Assembly (NCBI RefSeq): GCF_002157855.1
Contig: NZ_CP020880.1
Coordinates: forward strand, 2,604,001-2,668,000
DNA from: Sutcliffiella horikoshii
GTDB lineage: Bacteria > Bacillota > Bacilli > Bacillales > Bacillaceae_I
DNA: 64,000 nucleotides
Direction: 5' to 3'
Of the stretch, positions 43,631 to 52,748 are shown one piece after another. Under the pieces are notes generated by a model, which saw only the letters and a list, made by a program, of their open reading frames with translations, did not search any database and had not been told where the DNA came from. Position 1 is the first letter of the stretch, and every line of letters begins with the position of its first letter. The translations under genes were made by a program, and so were the position numbers.

Positions 43631-43879
43631 TCAGCCTAACACATCCGTAATCCCGTCCATATTTTCCGAGATCCATTCAACAGCAACATCCAAGTTCTCA
43701 AACTCCTGAACCTCAAATGTTACTTCATCCTGAAGCAGCCAAACATCTTTATCTTCATGATTAATGCCACCAATCGACCAGTGCAACAAGCTGTATGGGT
43801 GATTATGATTTAAAAATGAAGCCCAAGTTTTCGATTGGGCCACATTTTTCAATGAGTTGATTTTGCCCCCATTGCTCAT
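43631..43879 (-). CDS. DUF2552 (YqkC-like) protein
   Basis: 82 residues. The conserved block [20 protein letters not shown], then [16 protein letters not shown], agrees with my recollection of the B. subtilis YqkC family (DUF2552). ATG 43879 is chosen: GGAGGGAG precedes it and it overlaps the stop of the YqkB-like gene as ATGA, a sign of translational coupling. An earlier ATG at 43936 would overlap by 61 bases. Function unknown. Confidence 0.8.
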
Positions 43880-44211
43880 TTCGCTCCCTCCACTACCAAT
43901 AAACTCATTCGTGGATTTAAAATTTGGCTTGGACATTTCAACATATAGCAGTTAGCACTTTCCACAAAATCAACTGTCATGTCTTCATCAAAAAAGAGAA
44001 GCTTTGATTTTTCCATTAATAATGGTCCTATGTTTGTTTCTAGCTCCACATCGTCATCGTCTTTTTCCGGTGTGATCCATAGTGCGGAAACTCCGCTGAC
44101 GACGCATCCACATCCATCTGTATCATATTTTAGCTTTAACCATTTTCCTTCTTGGTTTTCAAGCTTTGCTTTTACTCTTTCTGTTGCTTTCTCTGTGAAC
44201 GTTACTTTCAC
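43876..44211 (-). CDS. HesB/IscA-like (YqkB) iron-sulphur biosynthesis protein
   Basis: 111 residues of the HesB-like domain fold. The N-terminal [14 protein letters not shown] helix and [19 protein letters not shown] are recognisable, with Cys at the tight GCGC turn and another in the C-terminal [10 protein letters not shown]. Related to B. subtilis YqkB, a degenerate A-type carrier-like protein. GTG start with TTTTGGAGG about nine bases upstream. Coupled to the YqkC-like gene. Confidence 0.85.
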
Positions 44212-44619: not shown

Positions 44620-44646
44620 GGAGGGGAAATCATTTTCCCCTCCTTT
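44620..44646. terminator. Bidirectional terminator
   Basis: GGAGGGGAAA/TTTTCCCCTCC stem with a TCA loop between the CDGSH gene and the convergent MATE gene. The last gene of the metal-transport operon ends here. Confidence 0.8.
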
Positions 44647-44648
44647 CA

Positions 44649-45983
44649 TTATGAATAATGGAGTCGCTGGAGTTTTGGAAGGTAAAGGAACAAAAAAATA
44701 GAACGTCCCAGACTGAATACAACAAAAGCAAGCCAGATACCCTGGTTTTCAAACATAGGTACCAATAACCATATGACTAATAAAAATAGAAGTAGTGCAA
44801 GAAAAATAGAGTTTCTAATAGACTTGGCGTCTGTCACCCCTGAAAATATCCCTTCTAGTTGCAAACCCCAAAAGCCCACAAAAGGGAATATCACCATCCA
44901 CACCAAGTTGTCAATTGCCATATCTCTTACCGTAGCTATATTTGTAAACAATCCGACAATACTATCTCCAAATAGCAACATGAGGACAGCCAGTGTAACA
45001 GCAGTTCCTAACCCCCATACTGCAGACAAATTTACAGCTCTATTAAATAGGAATAAATCTTTGCTTCCTAACGCCCTTCCCGTCAAAATACTGGATGCAT
45101 TTGCAAATCCACCAATTAAATAAGCCATTATATAATGAATTTGTAGCAAAATGGAATTGGCAGCAAGTGTCACCTCTCCCATACCGGCACCCTTGGATGT
45201 AAAAATCCCGGTCATAATCAACAAACATATCGTTCTTAAAAAGAGGTCTCTATTTACTTTTACCATCTTCAACAAAGGTTCTGGATCTAGGATCTCTCGA
45301 AGCTTCACACTAAGGAACCCCACTGTGTTATGTTTGGCAATGATAAATCCACCAAAGAGAACAGCACTTATTTCAGAGATAAGTGTCGCATAGCCTACAC
45401 CGGCTACCCCTAGTTCAAACACTAATACAAAAACAATACTTAGGACTATGTTCATTAGATTCATAATCAATTGGGTTGCAAGTGATAGCTGTACTTTTCC
45501 CATTCCGATTAACCACCCAATAAACACATAGCTCATTAAGATAAACGGGGCACCCCAAACGCGAATGGAAAAATAGGTGGAGGCAAAGGAAGATACCGCA
45601 TCGCTCCCTCCTATTACATTTAATGCAATATGTAAAATCGGCTTTTGAAAAATGATAAAAAGCAAGCCAAAAATCATTGCGATAATTATCGGCCTTAGTA
45701 AGGTTAATTTGGTTTCATTAATATTATGTGAACCTTGTGCCTGTGCAGTAAAGCCGCTTGTACTTACTCTTAAAAATCCAAGTAGCCAGTACATTGTATT
45801 GAAAATGACAGCACCAATTGCCACTCCACCTATGGAAGATGGATCAGGCAGACTCCCAACAACCGCAGTATCGACCGCTCCGATTAGCGGCGTGGTAATT
45901 CCAGCAATAATGAGGGGAAATGCCAGTCCCACATACTGCTTGTTACTAAAGGATACTTTCTCTTTAGATACTACTATATTCAT
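44649..45983 (-). CDS. MATE-family efflux transporter (DinF-like)
   Basis: 444 residues with 12 helices. The start KQYVGLAFPLIIAGITTPLIGAVDTAVVGSL is the MATE/DinF first-helix motif, and the second half repeats it (VNRDLFLRTICLL). Sodium- or proton-driven export. It is the last gene of a seven-gene operon, 21 bases after the ABC ATPase. In that setting it may export the metallophore or a toxic metal complex (inference); drug efflux is the generic alternative. Confidence 0.92.
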   Translation of the reverse strand: MNIVVSKEKVSFSNKQYVGLAFPLIIAGITTPLIGAVDTAVVGSLPDPSSIGGVAIGAVIFNTMYWLLGFLRVSTSGFTAQAQGSHNINETKLTLLRPIIIAMIFGLLFIIFQKPILHIALNVIGGSDAVSSFASTYFSIRVWGAPFILMSYVFIGWLIGMGKVQLSLATQLIMNLMNIVLSIVFVLVFELGVAGVGYATLISEISAVLFGGFIIAKHNTVGFLSVKLREILDPEPLLKMVKVNRDLFLRTICLLIMTGIFTSKGAGMGEVTLAANSILLQIHYIMAYLIGGFANASSILTGRALGSKDLFLFNRAVNLSAVWGLGTAVTLAVLMLLFGDSIVGLFTNIATVRDMAIDNLVWMVIFPFVGFWGLQLEGIFSGVTDAKSIRNSIFLALLLFLLVIWLLVPMFENQGIWLAFVVFSLGRSIFLFLYLPKLQRLHYS

Positions 45984-46004
45984 ACTTTCTTTTCCTTTCT
46001 GTCC

Positions 46005-46775
46005 TTAAAACGAAGCTGCCTTAATCAGCGCCTTCGTATATGGATGTCGATCTTCATGGTAAAGTTCTTCCAACGGGAACCAATCCACCACTAGCCCATC
46101 TTTTAAGACAATTATCTGGTTGCATAAGAAGGTGACAGCTCTTATGTCGTGCGAAATGAAAAGTATCGTCATTTCTGTTTTTTCTTGAAGACCTTTTAGT
46201 AACTGCAGAATCTGCTTTTGAACGGTAACATCAAGGCTTGCCGTAGGTTCATCACAAATTAAAAGGCCTGGTTCTAGACTTAGTGCTCTGGCAATACTGA
46301 CACGTTGCTTTTGCCCTCCACTCAATTCGACTGGAAAACGCTCCAACATATGCGCGTCTAAACCAACCATTTTAAGAAGAGCCTTCGCTAAGTCTTTGCG
46401 GGATGCCTCTTCTCTATTTAGAAAAGAGGGCTGAACCTCCTTGAAATTATCTAATGGTTCCAAAACACTTTTCCATATTGGAAGTTTGGGATTAAGCGTG
46501 CTGTTAGCATCCTGGAAAACCATCTGGACTTGTCTTCGGTACTCCCGCAATGCCTCTTTCTTTTTTGGCACGATTTGATTCCCTTCAAATGCTATGTAAC
46601 CTTCCTTATAAGGTTGAAGACCTAACAGTACCTTCGCAAGCGTACTCTTACCACTACCGCTTTCTCCTACAATCCCCACACACTCCCCTTTGTTTACAGC
46701 AAGCGACACATTGTCCAGAGCTTTAACTCCTTTGGAATAATGAATTGAAAGGTTCTCTACGATTAATTGACTCAT
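46005..46775 (-). CDS. Opp/Nik-type ABC transporter ATPase 2
   Basis: 256 residues. Walker A GESGSGKSTLAK, signature ELSGGQKQRVSIARAL, Walker B LLICDEPTASLDVT and H-loop LFISHDI are complete. The OppF/NikE class is indicated by the GxVGESGSGKST form and NPKLPIWKSVLEPL. Overlaps the other ATPase by four bases. Together they power the permease pair of the predicted metallophore importer. Confidence 0.93.
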   Translation of the reverse strand: MSQLIVENLSIHYSKGVKALDNVSLAVNKGECVGIVGESGSGKSTLAKVLLGLQPYKEGYIAFEGNQIVPKKKEALREYRRQVQMVFQDANSTLNPKLPIWKSVLEPLDNFKEVQPSFLNREEASRKDLAKALLKMVGLDAHMLERFPVELSGGQKQRVSIARALSLEPGLLICDEPTASLDVTVQKQILQLLKGLQEKTEMTILFISHDIRAVTFLCNQIIVLKDGLVVDWFPLEELYHEDRHPYTKALIKAASF

Positions 46776-47599
46776 ATAAAAATCACCTTCTCTCTAGTTG
46801 GCTGAACCCCGCTTCCTTCTCCTGGTAGAGCCAATACACAACCGCATAATTTTTTCGTAAACGGGTGCTGGTGATTACAGCGAATCACTTCAGGAGTTCC
46901 ACTTTCTACAATCTCACCTTGTTCCATCACATATATCCTGTCCGTCCGCTTGTAAGCCTGGGTAAGATCATGTGTGATCAGGAGAACAGCACACCCCGTC
47001 TCTTTTCTCATTTTTTCAATATAATCCAATACCTTTTCCCCGCTCATGACATCAAGGGCAGTGGTAACTTCATCGCAAATAAGTAACGAGGGTTTCAACG
47101 CAAGGGACATGGCTATAGCAGCCCTTTGCACCTGTCCTCCACTTAATTGAAAAGAGTAACTTTTATAGACTCTTTCCGCCTCTAGTCCCATTTCGGCAAG
47201 TACATCTAAAGTTACAGCTTTTGCTTCTTTTTTTGATAGAGGACTATGCGCCCGAATGGTTTCAACCATTTGCTTTCCTACACGGATAAAAGGGGTGAAA
47301 CTCCCTCTGTAGTCTTGAAAAATAATACCAATTTCCTTCCCAAGAAGCTTACGGTGCTCCTGGCGGGACAGACTTAATAGATTTCTATTTCCATAGAGTA
47401 TCTTTCCTTTTGCATTCATTTGTCCTGGAAGCAGGTTCAAAATCGCTCTAGCTGTCATACTTTTTCCACAACCACTTTCGCCTATCAATCCAATCATTTC
47501 CCCACTAGCGACCTGGAGATTTAATCTACTGATGATTGCTTTTGACTCTTTGTTTTTTTTTACAACTAAGTCTTCAATAGTAAGCAAAGGTTCACTCAT
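46772..47599 (-). CDS. Opp/Nik-type ABC transporter ATPase 1
   Basis: 275 residues, OppD/NikD class. Walker A GESGCGKSMTAR, signature QLSGGQVQRAAIAMSL, Walker B LLICDEVTTALDV (Val in place of Pro after Glu) and the C-terminal HQHPFTKKL element found in OppD/DppD proteins. Overlaps the permease gene by four bases and the second ATPase by four bases. Confidence 0.93.
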   Translation of the reverse strand: MSEPLLTIEDLVVKKNKESKAIISRLNLQVASGEMIGLIGESGCGKSMTARAILNLLPGQMNAKGKILYGNRNLLSLSRQEHRKLLGKEIGIIFQDYRGSFTPFIRVGKQMVETIRAHSPLSKKEAKAVTLDVLAEMGLEAERVYKSYSFQLSGGQVQRAAIAMSLALKPSLLICDEVTTALDVMSGEKVLDYIEKMRKETGCAVLLITHDLTQAYKRTDRIYVMEQGEIVESGTPEVIRCNHQHPFTKKLCGCVLALPGEGSGVQPTREKVIFI

Positions 47600-48450
47600 C
47601 GATTATCACTGCCCTTTCTAATGTCAAAATGATCTTTTAATCCATCTCCCAATAAATTGCATGTTAAGACAGTTATCATGATGGCAAGACCAGGATAAAT
47701 CATTAGGGATGGTACTGCTTGAAAATATCCTCGCCCTTCATTCAACATGGCTCCCCATTCGGGAATAGGCGGTTGTGCTCCTAGTCCGATGTAGGATAAG
47801 GCAGAAATCATGAGTATCACCTTACCTACATCAATGGCTGCCATCGCAATGATTTCCGGCAGTACTTGTGGCAAAAGGTGCATGCGAATGGTTTTCCATG
47901 TACTTGAGTGGGAAATCTTAGATACAAGGATATACTCTTTTTCCTTTTCTGCCATAACTAGACTTCGGACCACTCTCGCATACATGATCCACCTGACTAA
48001 AATGATAGCGAGCACAATATTGGACAGATTCGGACCCAATATGCCGGCAATGGCTATCGCCAGGATAAAATCGGGAAATGCCAAAATACCATCTATCATT
48101 CTCATAAAAACTGCATCTACTTTTCCTCCTATGTAACCTGAGATAAGACCGATTGGAACGCCTATTACAATTGCAAGGAATATCGCAAGTAATCCAAGTC
48201 CGATGGTTAACTTGGCTCCATACAAAATTCTTGAAAAGACATCTCTGCCCAATTGATCTGTCCCAAGCCAATGGAGGGATGAAGCCTCTTTTAGCCTATT
48301 TCCCATATCTATTTGGAAGGGATCATGGGGAGCCATTGCACTTCCAAACAAAATGACACCAGCGAGAAGGCCTGCAAAAATGGAACCAATTACTAGATTA
48401 GGATTGCGAAGAAGACTATTATTTTTCCATTTTATCGTCATGCTTTCCAT
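47596..48450 (-). CDS. Opp/Nik-type ABC permease 2
   Basis: 284 residues, six helices, OppC/NikC class: N-terminal DPFQIDMGNRLKEASSLHWLGTDQLGRDVFSR and the EAA-type loop ALSYIGLGAQPPIPEWGAML near the C-terminus. Its ATG overlaps the previous stop (TAATG). Membrane half of the transporter together with the preceding permease. Confidence 0.94.
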   Translation of the reverse strand: MESMTIKWKNNSLLRNPNLVIGSIFAGLLAGVILFGSAMAPHDPFQIDMGNRLKEASSLHWLGTDQLGRDVFSRILYGAKLTIGLGLLAIFLAIVIGVPIGLISGYIGGKVDAVFMRMIDGILAFPDFILAIAIAGILGPNLSNIVLAIILVRWIMYARVVRSLVMAEKEKEYILVSKISHSSTWKTIRMHLLPQVLPEIIAMAAIDVGKVILMISALSYIGLGAQPPIPEWGAMLNEGRGYFQAVPSLMIYPGLAIMITVLTCNLLGDGLKDHFDIRKGSDNR

Positions 48451-49400
48451 TAACTTATCTCCCTTCCATGCCTAATCTGTGGATCGATGAGCAAATAGAG
48501 CAAATCTACAATTAAATTGGTCATGACCACTAGGACACCTACCACCATAATGTATCCTTGAATTAACGGATAATCTCGTTGCATCACTGCTTGTACAATC
48601 ATTTCTCCCATACCCGGCCAGGAGAATAGTATCTCAATTACGGTGATCCCTCCGAGAAGACTGCCAATACTCAACCCAAACATTGTCACAAGCGGAATGA
48701 GGCTTCCGCGCAAAGCATGAAATAAAAGGATCCTTCCCCTTCCTAATCCCCGGGCATAAGCTGATTCAATATATGTACTTTGCAAGGTAGAAACGAGTCT
48801 TTCCCTCAGTAATTTTATATATAAAGGCGCCATGGCGATCCCCAGAGTGATAGAAGGCAGGACAAAGTGGGCAAGTGTCCCTTTTCCCATAACAGGCAGC
48901 AAGTTCCATTTTAATGAAAAAAAGTAGATGAGTAGTAACCCAAGCCAAAAGCTAGGAATGGACGCACCGAGTATAGCAAACCATCTGCTGATATAATCTG
49001 GCCACTTCCCTTCATATACTGCCCCTATTACACCAAGTGGAACGGCTATAACGAATAGAGCAATCACCCCTCCTACGGATAAGGCAACGGTCGCTGGAAG
49101 TTTATCCAAAATGATTTCCAAAACTGGCCGTTTAGAGATAATAGATTCTCCTAAATCCAATTGTGCTACATTCCATAGCCATTGAACATATTGAACTAAA
49201 ATCGGCTTATCAAATCCATATTCCTCCATGACCCTTTCCTTATCCTCTGTGGTGGATATAACATCATCCACTTTCAATAATGCCCTGACCGGATCTCCTG
49301 GGGTTATTTTCATCAGGATAAATGTTGCGAAGGAAAGTATCAAAACTATAATTATCAATTGAAACAATCTTGAGCTGATAATAGAAACAGCCTGTCGCAT
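48450..49400 (-). CDS. Opp/Nik-type ABC permease 1
   Basis: 316 residues, six helices, OppB/NikB class: FILMKITPGDPVRALLKVDDV early and YIESAYARGLGRGRILLFHALRGSLIPLVT as the cytoplasmic coupling loop. ATG 49400 is chosen since GGTGG lies just before it. Follows the binding-protein gene after a gap of 64 bases. Confidence 0.93.
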   Translation of the reverse strand: MRQAVSIISSRLFQLIIIVLILSFATFILMKITPGDPVRALLKVDDVISTTEDKERVMEEYGFDKPILVQYVQWLWNVAQLDLGESIISKRPVLEIILDKLPATVALSVGGVIALFVIAVPLGVIGAVYEGKWPDYISRWFAILGASIPSFWLGLLLIYFFSLKWNLLPVMGKGTLAHFVLPSITLGIAMAPLYIKLLRERLVSTLQSTYIESAYARGLGRGRILLFHALRGSLIPLVTMFGLSIGSLLGGITVIEILFSWPGMGEMIVQAVMQRDYPLIQGYIMVVGVLVVMTNLIVDLLYLLIDPQIRHGREIS

Positions 49401-49464
49401 TTTTCCACCCACTTCTATTCATGAAGAAAAGTGAAAGCATCCAGGATACTTTCACTTCATCCAT

Positions 49465-50997
49465 TTATTTTACATCCATCTTGTTTGTTATAAGGTAATA
49501 TTCCTCTGATCCGGGCTCCCAATCTTTCACTCTATCATTTACTCCTACGATAATGTGCGGGTGCAAGATGAAGGAATGAGGAACCTCCTTCCGAATGACA
49601 TTTACCGCTTTCTTCTGTAGCTCCATCCTCTTTTCCGGATCTGCTGTGGTGTTTAGTTGTTGAGTTAGTTTATTTAATTCGGGAATATTAATTTGGCCAG
49701 GATTCAACGCCCCATCCGGTAGATAAGCAACATTAAGGAAATAACCGCCATCCCCACGAGGAGCTGTCAGGTTAGAGTATGTCACCATATCCCATTCATC
49801 TTGCTGTTCCCATAAATAACTATCAATGTTTTCAATGGTGACGATTTCTATATTCACCCCGACAGATGCAGCTTCACCCTGTAGGTACTGAGCAAGCAAA
49901 GGAAGCTCAGGTCTTCCTGGATACGTCGCAAGTTTAAGAGTAAGCACCTCACCGTCTCTTTCCATCTTGCCGTCCGCGTTCTTTTTATAGCCTGCCTCTT
50001 TCAATAGCTCTTCTGCCTTTTCAGGGTCATAACTTGTTGGTTCCGTTTCACTCGCAAAGGCAAAGTTAGGATTAAATGGGCCTGCCGCCTCTGTTGCGTG
50101 ACCATTCATTATTTCCTCCACTGCCACTGGACGGTTCACCAATAGGTCCAATGCTTTTCTCACATCCACATCCTGCAATGCAGGATTAGCATTGTTATAG
50201 AGTAGAAAGTGAACACGAAGACTTGGTACCGACTCAACCCTTAGTTTGTTGTTGCTTTCAATTGGCTCTAGCGACTCGGGAGGAAGATGATAGGCAATAT
50301 CTGCTTCACCTGATTGAAGAGCAAGCGCCCTAACATTTCCATCTGAATTAAATTTGATTTTCACTTGATCCAATTTTGCTACTCCGTCCCAATAATCCTC
50401 ATATCTTTCTAAGTTCACTTCCGTTTCTGAGGTGAAACTTGTGACCTTAAACGGACCAGTCGCTACCGGTTGCTCCCCCATGTTTTCAGCATCCGCTTTA
50501 ACGATGGAGGTATTTGTATGTACCAACTCTGAAAGAAAGGCCGGATATTCCTCTGTGTTGACGAACGTTATCTCCTGTCCGTCCGCTTCCATGGACTCGA
50601 TTTTCAAACTAGATGAAATTGCTTCATTCGTTTCCAGCACCCTTTCAAAGGAAGCTTTTACCGCTTCTCCATCCACTGGTGACCCATCATGGAAGGTGAC
50701 ACCTTCCCGAATCTTAAATGTCCAAGTTTTTTCATCTTTTTTCTCCCATGCTTCTGCCAGCCAAGGTTGAATTTCCAGGTTTTCGTCAATTCTAACCAAT
50801 GTTTCTGCCACTCCAGCACGGACCCCCATCCAATCCTGATGCGGATCCATTGTTTTAGAAGCAAAACTGAATAGCATCGTTACAGACTTATCAGTGGATT
50901 CTTTTGATATTTCCTTTTCATTTCCACTACTGCAACCTGAAATAATTAATAACATGACGATAAAAATGGAAAATACCCATGATTTTTTTGATTTCAT
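49465..50997 (-). CDS. NikA/CntA-type ABC substrate-binding lipoprotein
   Basis: 510 residues. Signal peptide with lipobox (LLIISGCSSGN, Cys22), then an SBP_bac_5 fold: TMDPHQDWMGVRAGVAETLVRIDENLEIQPWLAEAWEK and TWTFKIREGVTFHDGSPV are the N-terminal lobe landmarks. Best matches by eye are nickel- and opine-type metal-complex binders (NikA, CntA), not DppA. Anchored outside the membrane, it delivers ligand to the permease pair. Upstream Zur-type operators suggest a zinc complex as the ligand (inference). 14 bases after the EamA gene. Confidence 0.9.
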   Translation of the reverse strand: MKSKKSWVFSIFIVMLLIISGCSSGNEKEISKESTDKSVTMLFSFASKTMDPHQDWMGVRAGVAETLVRIDENLEIQPWLAEAWEKKDEKTWTFKIREGVTFHDGSPVDGEAVKASFERVLETNEAISSSLKIESMEADGQEITFVNTEEYPAFLSELVHTNTSIVKADAENMGEQPVATGPFKVTSFTSETEVNLERYEDYWDGVAKLDQVKIKFNSDGNVRALALQSGEADIAYHLPPESLEPIESNNKLRVESVPSLRVHFLLYNNANPALQDVDVRKALDLLVNRPVAVEEIMNGHATEAAGPFNPNFAFASETEPTSYDPEKAEELLKEAGYKKNADGKMERDGEVLTLKLATYPGRPELPLLAQYLQGEAASVGVNIEIVTIENIDSYLWEQQDEWDMVTYSNLTAPRGDGGYFLNVAYLPDGALNPGQINIPELNKLTQQLNTTADPEKRMELQKKAVNVIRKEVPHSFILHPHIIVGVNDRVKDWEPGSEEYYLITNKMDVK

Positions 50998-51011
50998 ATT
51001 TTTCTCTCCTT

Positions 51012-51887
51012 TTACCTATTCAGCCTAACAAGGCTCGGTTTGATTTTAGCTTCAGGCATTTTCTGTTTGGAAAGCGCAATAGATGCGCCAATGATTAATG
51101 CACCGCCAACAAATGAGAGGACTCCTAAAGTCTCTCCCCAAAAAACAAATCCCCACATTACATTAAAGAAAATTCCTATGTATCGAACGACCTCCACTAC
51201 CATGATATTTTCATGTGTAAATGCACTCGTTAACACTAACTGTCCTATCAGTGACACCACTCCGATACAGAGTAGGTAGAACCATCCAAGAGGCGTCGGC
51301 CACACAAACTCATTCCACATTAGAGGGAGAGAAACAAGTGTACCTGATGCCAGAAAATAAAAAACAATCTCATATTTATGATGTCTTGTGCTTAAATACC
51401 GAATCGAGGTGGCTGCACATGCCGCTAAAAAAGCGCTAAGAACACCGACCAGTGCATAAACCGTGTACGAATTATAACTAAACGGGTTTATCAAAAGAAT
51501 CGCGCCCACAATGAACAGAGGAAACAACATAACCATATTCCTGTTCATTTTCTCTTTTAGAAAATAGCCGGAAAGCATGATGGCAAAGAAGGGCGATAAA
51601 TGCGCGAGAATGCTTGCATCCCCAAGTGGTATGTGAGCAATGGTAAAAAAATAAGCCACCAGATAAAGGGATCCAAGGGCTCCCCGTAACACTAGCATCG
51701 GAACACCTTTTTTAGAAAACGACACTTTTTCTTTTCGCATAAGGAGAAAAATAAGAAAAGCTCCAATAATGCTACGAAAAAATACTATTTCAGACACTGG
51801 AATGGTTTCACTTGCAGCTTTTACAAAAACATTCATGATGCTAAATGTTAATGATGATGTAACGGCAAGTAGGATCCCTTTGTTCAA
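51012..51887 (-). CDS. EamA/DMT-family transporter
   Basis: 291 residues, ten helices made of two EamA repeats (SIMNVFVKAASETIPVSEIVFFRS and the second half starting near residue 145). First gene of the operon. In Pseudomonas an EamA protein (CntI) exports the opine metallophore pseudopaline, so a matching role is plausible here, but no CntL/CntM biosynthetic genes lie in the window. TTG start with AGGAGGGG six bases upstream. Confidence 0.92.
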   Translation of the reverse strand: MNKGILLAVTSSLTFSIMNVFVKAASETIPVSEIVFFRSIIGAFLIFLLMRKEKVSFSKKGVPMLVLRGALGSLYLVAYFFTIAHIPLGDASILAHLSPFFAIMLSGYFLKEKMNRNMVMLFPLFIVGAILLINPFSYNSYTVYALVGVLSAFLAACAATSIRYLSTRHHKYEIVFYFLASGTLVSLPLMWNEFVWPTPLGWFYLLCIGVVSLIGQLVLTSAFTHENIMVVEVVRYIGIFFNVMWGFVFWGETLGVLSFVGGALIIGASIALSKQKMPEAKIKPSLVRLNR

Positions 51888-51923
51888 TACTTCCCCTCCT
51901 ATATATGCCCTACAACAACCATT

Positions 51924-51944
51924 AAAATAGAATGATTACGATTT
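51924..51944 (-). promoter_or_regulatory. Zur-type operator, proximal
   Basis: On the plus strand AATGATTACGATTT, which matches the central and right half of the Bacillus Zur box (AAATCGTAAT-N-ATTACGATTT) perfectly; the left half is poor. It lies about 40 bases before the EamA start, inside the leader. Confidence 0.55.
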
Positions 51945-51987
51945 AAACGCCGTGCTTATTTTGAGCCTATTCGAAAATTCCCTGAAT

Positions 51988-52008
51988 AAAGCGTAATGAT
52001 TACTATTT
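51988..52008 (-). promoter_or_regulatory. Zur-type operator, distal
   Basis: On the plus strand AAAGCGTAATGATTACTATTT aligns with the 21-bp Bacillus Zur box at 18 of 20 defined positions, including the whole palindromic core CGTAATGATTAC. It sits just downstream of the predicted transcription start, where bound repressor would block the polymerase. Confidence 0.72.
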
Positions 52009-52017
52009 GCAAATTTC

Positions 52018-52046
52018 ACTATACACCTCCCTTTTTAAACCGTCAA
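52018..52046 (-). promoter_or_regulatory. Sigma-A promoter of the metal-transport operon
   Basis: On the minus strand TTGACG (52046-52041) and TATAGT (52023-52018) are exactly 17 bases apart. The start would fall near 52011, leaving a leader of about 125 bases containing both Zur-type boxes. Confidence 0.65.
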
Positions 52047-52130: not shown

Positions 52131-52748
52131 CTAAAATATTGTTTGAAGATCACGTAGTGAATGAATGATATAATCGTATTCTTCCACTTCTCCAAATCCA
52201 TAACTAGCATAGACAAAAGGAATACCCGCTACTTCCGCCGCTTGCTGATCTCCAAGCGTATCCCCCACATAAACAGGGCTTTTAAGTTGATTGCGCTCTA
52301 TGATTAATTTTATATTTTCACCTTTTGAAAGTCCTGTTCTACCTGGATTCTCATAGTCCAGAAAATGTGTCTCCAATTGATGGTATTTATAAAAAGCCTC
52401 TATGTATCCTTCTTGGCAATTACTCACAATAAAAAGCTTGTATTTTTGAGATAAGCTCTCTAACACTTCTTCTAATTGTTCGTAGAGTTGACCGCCTTTT
52501 TGCTCTAGAAGCACTCTCTCCGCTTCACAACATTTGTTCGACAATTGAGTACGATACTTTTCTTCTATATCTGGAAAGAGAATCTTTTCTATTTCATGCA
52601 TTTGCAACCCCATGGTAGCTTTGAAATCCTCCCTTGTTAACTCTTTCTCGATCTTATCATCATTATTCAGAATCTCATTCCAAGCCACCAGTACTGTTTC
52701 GCTTGAATCCCATAACGTACCGTCTAAATCAAAAATAATGCTGTCCAT
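52131..52748 (-). CDS. HAD-superfamily hydrolase (phosphatase-like)
   Basis: 205 residues. Motif I is IIFDLDGTLWDSS, motif II IVSNCQEGY, motif III the Lys in GLSKGENI, motif IV VYVGDTLGDQQAAEVAGI. The helical cap lies between motifs I and II, as in phosphoglycolate phosphatases. It removes phosphate from an unknown small molecule. Complete, unlike the HAD remnant at 40171. Confidence 0.93.
   Translation of the reverse strand: MDSIIFDLDGTLWDSSETVLVAWNEILNNDDKIEKELTREDFKATMGLQMHEIEKILFPDIEEKYRTQLSNKCCEAERVLLEQKGGQLYEQLEEVLESLSQKYKLFIVSNCQEGYIEAFYKYHQLETHFLDYENPGRTGLSKGENIKLIIERNQLKSPVYVGDTLGDQQAAEVAGIPFVYASYGFGEVEEYDYIIHSLRDLQTIF

Follow-up and report, generated by a model that had tools for sequence, protein, structure and literature searches.

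The staphylococcal Opp5A/Opp2 system (SaNikA, PDB 4ofj/4xkn) is a nickel importer. In Staphylococcus aureus, an ABC importer of the Opp/NikA superfamily, CntABCDF, takes up a zinc chelate as part of the staphylopine system, which is zinc- and Zur-responsive (PMC5666155). In Pseudomonas aeruginosa, the EamA protein CntI, a drug/metabolite transporter (DMT) encoded in a Zur-controlled zinc operon, exports pseudopaline; its loss traps this compound intracellularly and harms growth unless pseudopaline synthesis is also removed (PMC5719457). Clusters combining EamA with an Opp-type importer were described in bacilli by Morey and Kehl-Fie 2020, whose survey of opine zincophores starts from the synthase CntM, so that transport-only systems are invisible to it (PMC7438024). 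These systems were compared with a seven-gene EamA-NikA-MATE operon located in a 64,000-nucleotide stretch of Sutcliffiella horikoshii DNA (contig NZ_CP020880.1, positions 2,604,001 to 2,668,000, hereafter the window).

As in the staphylococcal Opp5A/Opp2 importer, the solute-binding protein (SBP) and both permeases of the window operon pass the Opp5A, Opp2B and Opp2C cut-offs. Yet, the operon carries Zur boxes, is linked to CntL and CntM (together CntLM) in relatives, and resides in a genome without a convincing nickel enzyme (two were searched for). With CntABCDF it shares the superfamily of the ABC importer and, as in Cnt systems generally, an efflux protein in the same cluster, but its SBP reaches 158 bits where CntA requires 800, CntL and CntM were not found, and the operon holds no MFS exporter. 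Its EamA resembles CntI, whose operon serves zinc and is under Zur control (PMC5719457), at the level of the DMT family and of the predicted regulation, but the opine synthase is missing. Cluster 5 of the CntM network (PMC7438024), assigned here from its description (bacilli, EamA, Opp-type) and not from a sequence list, likewise combines an EamA exporter with an SBP_bac_5-type ABC importer, and CntLM-bearing relatives share the SBP family and Zur boxes of the window; the window genome differs by the added MATE and by the lack of any detected CntL or CntM. EamA/Opp-type opine clusters are thus already known. What sets the window operon apart is that the transport genes of a zincophore-type system lie behind a Zur box with a MATE and without their synthase, in a family labelled nickel; no description of such a synthase-less operon was found among the titles and abstract openings that searches of open-licence papers listed.

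The operon very probably mediates Zur-controlled uptake of a zinc chelate. The fuller reading, to which we give a probability of roughly 0.6, is that of a Zur-repressed zinc-chelate shuttle, in which EamA and MATE would send out a chelator that is likely histidine-containing and is not a self-made opine. At low zinc, Zur would leave its boxes at the start site and in the leader, allowing expression of the seven genes. Zinc bound to a small organic chelator would then enter through the ABC importer with its Opp5A/NikA-type lipoprotein, while EamA and MATE would return the metal-free chelator to the outside or export one already present in the cell. This chelator could be an opine of neighbouring bacteria, a recycled opine or a common metabolite; a self-made opine of the staphylopine or pseudopaline type is disfavoured because neither CntL nor CntM is detectable in the genome. 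The importer role is best read from family membership, and the exporter roles of EamA and MATE from family and from analogy with CntI.

Zur boxes at the operon and in the genome

The main Zur box, AAATAGTAATCATTACGCTTT (51988..52008, minus strand), displayed two mismatches to the 21-mer consensus AAATCGTAATNATTACGATTT. It begins 9 bp past the -10 hexamer of a promoter-like pair (52018..52046, minus strand, 10/12 matches) composed of TTGACG (-35, 52046-52041), a 17-nt spacer and TATAGT (-10, 52023-52018). The sequence of this promoter, proposed in a first-pass annotation of the window, is indeed present, but the hexamer pair alone is no better than chance (1 found versus 1.2 expected). A second box, AAATCGTAATCATTCTATTTT (51924..51944, minus strand), is situated in the leader at a spacing of 64 bp; its left half is perfect, while the 15-mer as a whole has four mismatches, and its support is comparative, boxes occurring at a similar position and spacing in relatives. 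Both boxes announced earlier, one at the start site and one half-perfect in the leader, were therefore located.

Searches relied on the 21-base Bacillus Zur consensus, whose letters were verified on the genome's own sites, and on a shorter 15-mer, with reversed patterns as controls. The 15-mer was uninformative: at up to three mismatches it gave three matches in the window against 3.27 expected (not significant) and, at three mismatches in the whole genome, 217 against 372 for the reversed control, that is, no discrimination. The 21-mer at up to three mismatches occurred at six sites in the 4,295,882 bases of the genome, the reversed control at none. These are the window promoter and five sites at zinc-starvation genes: one separates an ArsP-type permease from a divergent FAD oxidoreductase, and the others precede a ZnuA-like binding protein, two CobW GTPases (the second ZagA-like) and an alternative ribosomal protein S14. 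The palindromic promoter box of the operon thus matches the genome's remaining Zur sites, as a member of a Bacillus Zur regulon does. An opine synthase concealed at another Zur site was rejected, since the five other sites adjoin ordinary zinc-starvation genes.

The first of these five sites deserves mention in its own right. It lies in locus L030:6937-8152 of the window genome (G000, C1:3417936-3419151), where a Zur box with two mismatches to the 21-mer separates an ArsP-type permease/DUF1980 pair from the divergent FAD oxidoreductase. The latter shows a weak Lys/Orn monooxygenase match and is a candidate tailoring enzyme, linked to Zur by the box.

Box conservation was surveyed in two sets of relatives. 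The first set comprised 41 loci, scanned from 320 bp before EamA, SBP or CntL to 60 bp into the gene, with expectations drawn from dinucleotide shuffles. Copies of genomes already included (L045, L046, L047, L050, L052, L056 and L110), doubles of L042 and L043 (L051 and L098) and a locus where EamA and SBP are not adjacent (L114) were omitted, while L100 and L101, which have CntL-CntM-EamA with the ABC genes not adjacent, were kept. The second set comprised 31 later loci, scanned over 620 bp upstream of SBP (L154, a copy of L048, omitted). No pair of SBP genes across the two sets reaches 97% identity over 800 bases; the recurrences reported below are nevertheless not independent events, because related promoters share ancestry.

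In the first set, the box was found at up to two mismatches in 33 of the 41 loci (0.25 expected) and at up to three in 39 (2.55 expected). Among later loci with permeases, at up to two mismatches, it occurred in 9/10 of the window's SBP branch (0.07 expected) and 15/17 more distant ones (0.12 expected), that is, 24/27 overall, and in none of the four SBP genes without adjacent permeases (0/4). The latter (L169, L176, L182 and L183) all belong to genus g45 and stand in another gene context than the boxed ones. Double boxes were common in the window's SBP branch. Pairs 60-69 bp apart, with at most four mismatches each, numbered 25 in the first set against 0.25 expected; those 62-70 bp apart occurred in 20 of 23 loci of this branch versus 1 of 18 others, the single outsider being L043, where a window-type EamA precedes a more distant SBP. 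Likewise, seven of the ten later loci of the branch had such a pair, versus none of the 17 others. Upstream of the SBP in the more distant operons L173, L174, L178, L179, L180 and L181, pairs were observed 25-28 bp apart, unlike the 62-70 bp of the window branch.

Three Fur-family genes were found in the window genome. The first, near a xerD-like gene, exceeded the Fur cut-off; the second was closest to PerR, below the PerR cut-off. The third encodes 136 residues and follows an ABC permease and an ATPase that match zinc-type models best, with scores under the cut-off. It is presumed to be Zur from its context and by exclusion. Genomic sites and conservation in relatives bear out, at the level of the motif, the Zur-type control suggested earlier, with Zur as the protein expected to bind. 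Of 71 loci, 13 have zinc-starvation genes alongside (a raw count, without null comparison). Zinc was inferred as the operon's metal from the Zur boxes and these neighbours.

Importer family and CntLM clusters in relatives

The SBP (49465..50997, minus strand) is a lipoprotein of the Opp5A/NikA family, scoring 768 bits with NF045468 (cut-off 600). A named S. horikoshii relative has an SBP 93% identical to it, in keeping with the genus Sutcliffiella. The name CntA that the first-pass annotation had attached to it had to be abandoned (158 bits with NF047575, cut-off 800), and NikA of TIGR02294 was rejected as well (205 bits, cut-off 393). The nearest PDB entries, 3t66 (1e-129), which we take to come from A. 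halodurans, and SaNikA 4ofj (5e-81), are both called nickel-binding. The segment TAPRGDGGYFLNVA aligns with TIPRGDTGYFFNQA of SaNikA, the motif PRGDxGYFxN being common to both. All 41 family members in the comparison retain PRGD, which the two CntA-like proteins of G005 and G014 lack. Zur-boxed SBPs with 3t66 segments (DPHV..YxPxRAGITET and PRGDAGYYLN) were also observed in L059:8027-14896, where a CobW gene lies upstream, and in L044:1-4512. Judging from such sequences, the solved protein 3t66 may itself be a zinc-chelate receptor.

EamA, SBP and CntM were each searched for in 299 genomes of the order (presumably Bacillales), the draw being judged the same from visible genome labels. The EamA ortholog was found in 25 genomes, SBP in 62 and CntM in 25; the CntM count omits five weak matches that fell short of the cut-off, including those in the SBP-bearing genomes G199 and G285, and includes G095, where the match is in two pieces. 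SBP and CntM occurred together in 18 genomes (Fisher p 8e-9), and all EamA genomes carried SBP (25/25). Leaving G095 aside, CntM proteins fell into a group at 425-510 bits, whose 15 genomes all carried both SBP and EamA, and a group above 600 bits, with SBP in three of nine genomes and EamA in none. In 13 of the 15 EamA-linked genomes, CntL, CntM, EamA, SBP and the ABC genes were contiguous (SBP lies elsewhere in G244 and G286). Since these 15 genomes all carry SBP and EamA, 13 of them clustered with CntL-CntM, the Opp5A/NikA SBP family is taken from its gene context to serve as a zincophore receptor.

These clusters support the zincophore connection claimed earlier. The same importer stands in Pseudalkalibacillus hwajinpoensis (L055) behind CntL-like, CntM-like and EamA genes, the EamA being 56% identical to that of the window. 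Its CntL-like protein matched PF03059 (4.7e-13) and stayed below cut-off with NF033601 (134 bits, cut-off 350); its CntM-like protein gave 446 bits with PF10100 and 345 bits with NF033600 (cut-off 675). In L109 and L113, the seven genes of the window form one run with CntL and CntM. In the window genome itself, profile searches gave no CntM (PF10100, 0 matches) and no CntL (PF03059, 0 matches at E<=1; the same model detects CntL of L055). The absence of opine synthesis genes beside the operon, noted at first pass, thus extends to the whole genome, and a CntL or CntM elsewhere in it was rejected as a candidate. CntM was likewise absent from 44 of the 62 SBP genomes, and from 21/25 of those whose SBP is at least 63% identical.

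A separate zincophore-type cluster was observed in two other Sutcliffiella genomes, G005 and G014 (L116:11160-19376 and L117:1754-9973). It comprises a CntA-like ABC importer, CntL, CntM (above 700 bits), a gene of 277 residues where CntK would be expected, and a Zur box with one mismatch.

The exporters varied with the presence of the synthase. Operon composition was counted in 60 of 70 rows, ten being dropped because the permeases were absent or the locus too short; the close kin L059/L060 and L054/L057 counted as two rows each, and L153 and L157 were scored without MATE and without EamA, respectively (short open frames). Complete operons with CntM had EamA in 13/13 and MATE in 2/13; those without CntM had EamA in 9/47 and MATE in 37/47 (MATE versus CntM, p 5e-5). 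The CntM-bearing operons were gathered through the EamA search, which favours EamA, but the genome-wide CntM search turned up this type of CntM in no other genome. These counts make MATE the usual partner without synthase and EamA the usual partner with it; the window operon holds both.

Weighing the alternatives

Several observations weigh against the zinc-chelate shuttle. The SBP family bears a nickel name. Eight of the 41 loci lacked a box at two mismatches, although six of these had one at three, and the later operon L175, with permeases, was boxless even at three. The predicted SBP model (11 rows) had a mean pLDDT of 65.4 and a pTM of 0.61, too poor for pocket comparison. No model names Zur, and the best NCBIfam match of the presumed Zur was PerR (79 bits, cut-off 180). 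EamA, present in only 9 of the 47 full operons without CntM, absent beside SBP in several Sutcliffiella and cut short in L157 (98-residue frame), appears dispensable to the module in view of its rarity and this truncation, and MATE was absent from ten of the same 47 operons. Finally, the window-type EamA forms a lineage apart from the CntLM type, and the two may therefore carry different cargo.

This last point was apparent from identities and trees alike. At equal SBP distance (71-75%), the EamA of four CntM-less relatives (SBP 71-74%) shares 76-80% identity with that of the window, the EamA of CntLM clusters 56-57%. CntM-less EamA formed a clade of 11 rows on a long branch (support 100/99). 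The EamA tree separated CntM-bearing from CntM-less rows by one change, on a weakly supported branch (59/83) that 64% of the bootstrap trees recovered and to which L114, a very long row, belongs, while the SBP tree needed five changes. The window operon is therefore not cleanly a CntLM cluster minus its synthases, its EamA belonging to a separate long-branch lineage.

Two versions of the shuttle, differing in the origin of the chelator, were considered. In the first, a serious if tentative candidate, the operon would import zinc-loaded opines of other bacteria, and EamA and MATE would expel the stripped opine, preventing metal chelation inside the cell. In L055/L110 (Pseudalkalibacillus hwajinpoensis), L109 and L113, SBPs of the same branch (73-75% identical) occur together with CntLM, and the many SBP genomes without CntM counted above, close SBPs included, would be such consumers. 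The poor growth of a cntI mutant with intact pseudopaline synthesis (PMC5719457) also fits. Yet, the purifying selection on EamA in a non-producer requires an assumption of recycling, and the CntM-bearing SBPs of the branch form their own sub-branch, so the SBP ligand may differ from that of opine producers.

In the second version, possible but somewhat doubtful, the molecule sent out by EamA and MATE would be a common metabolite, for example L-histidine, whose zinc complex the SBP would retrieve, no dedicated synthase being needed. In its favour, SaNikA, a relative in the same family, binds nickel with free histidine. Exporters and importer lie behind a single Zur-boxed promoter in CntM-less genomes, and the window EamA is, as shown above, closer to that of such genomes than to the CntLM type. 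Against it, free histidine chelates more weakly than opines, the locus showed no histidine-specific gene, and the cargo of EamA and MATE is putative. L-Histidine is part of pseudopaline, and free histidine was mentioned as a possible nickelophore (PMC5719457); we infer that both would suit one receptor family. By extension, NikA-type transporters labelled "nickel" might, over a large branch in Bacillaceae and kin, be Zur-controlled, synthase-free zinc-chelate shuttles that export L-histidine or a similar metabolite through EamA and/or MATE. Opine clusters would then be a form of this shuttle in which CntLM has improved a histidine-based ligand. We regard this generalization as rather unlikely.

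A nickel importer, as the family name has it, with the Zur box reflecting cross-regulation only, is very unlikely. NF045468, Opp2B and Opp2C all carry nickel names, as do the nearest solved structures, and urease-alpha exceeded its family cut-off (23 bits) in 13/16 Sutcliffiella genomes. Yet, these were mostly weak, partial matches; a strong one covering nearly the whole profile occurred in a single genome of the 16 (G002, 194.6 bits), while SBP was found in 12. In the window genome, the match was weak and partial (23.8 bits, in a 595-residue frame) and is read from its sequence as another amidohydrolase. No NiFe hydrogenase was found there either, and nickel was rejected as the metal on the basis of these two enzymes, the ones that the searches covered; the Zur boxes and zinc-gene neighbours point the same way. 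According to the first-pass annotation, a placement among nickel-only binders would have spoken against a zincophore system. By name, the SBP does stand among them, but the name itself is in doubt here, because 24/27 later operons with permeases were Zur-boxed and 15/15 genomes with EamA-linked CntM carried this SBP. Although its ABC genes belong to the Opp superfamily, the operon is hardly credible as a peptide importer with two drug-type exporters and a coincidental Zur box, since Dpp/Opp peptide-binding models scored far below cut-off on the SBP, the box is conserved and the operon genes cluster with CntLM in relatives.

Uptake of a zinc chelate under Zur control hence remains the preferred reading, and the Zur-zincophore proposal of the first pass was largely right. 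If true, many "nickel transporter" annotations would designate zinc-chelate receptors. Genomes with the receptor and without synthase outnumber producers (44/62 lack CntM), and either interbacterial sharing of zincophores or a synthase-free metabolite shuttle would then be common.

Operon layout and flanking genes

The seven genes reported at first pass as closely spaced or overlapping on one strand are all intact and run on the minus strand from 51887 to 44649. Gaps are of 14, 52 and 21 bp (thus at most 52 bp), and the remaining junctions overlap by 1-4 bp. Pfam assignments across the operon were EamA, SBP_bac_5, two BPD_transp_1 permeases, two ABC ATPases and MatE. Comparison of the window with four relatives gave dN/dS values of 0.05-0.19, which indicates purifying selection on each of the seven genes; in the window lineage, none therefore has the look of a relic.

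The EamA (DMT) transporter, a candidate ligand exporter (51012..51887, minus strand), has a TTG start and 105 bits with PF00892. Downstream of the SBP and on the same strand follow the Opp2B-type permease (48450..49412; NF045470, 414 bits, cut-off 350), the Opp2C-type permease (47596..48450; NF045474, 363.5 bits, cut-off 300) and two ABC ATPases, whose best models were CntF, CntD and NikD for the first (46772..47599) and NikE for the second (46005..46775), all below cut-off. The last gene encodes the MATE transporter (44649..45983, minus strand), a candidate ligand exporter or recycler with 107 bits for PF01554 and 228 bits for TIGR00797 (cut-off 147).

A 10-bp hairpin (44620..44643, strand not assigned) lies directly past MATE. 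It was rejected as the operon terminator, because its T-run follows only on the plus strand and is absent from the operon's own. The flanks of the operon showed no visible link to zinc: genes for a HesB-like Fe-S biosynthesis protein and a DUF2552 protein lie downstream, and one for a HAD hydrolase upstream (43631-44211, 52131-52748).

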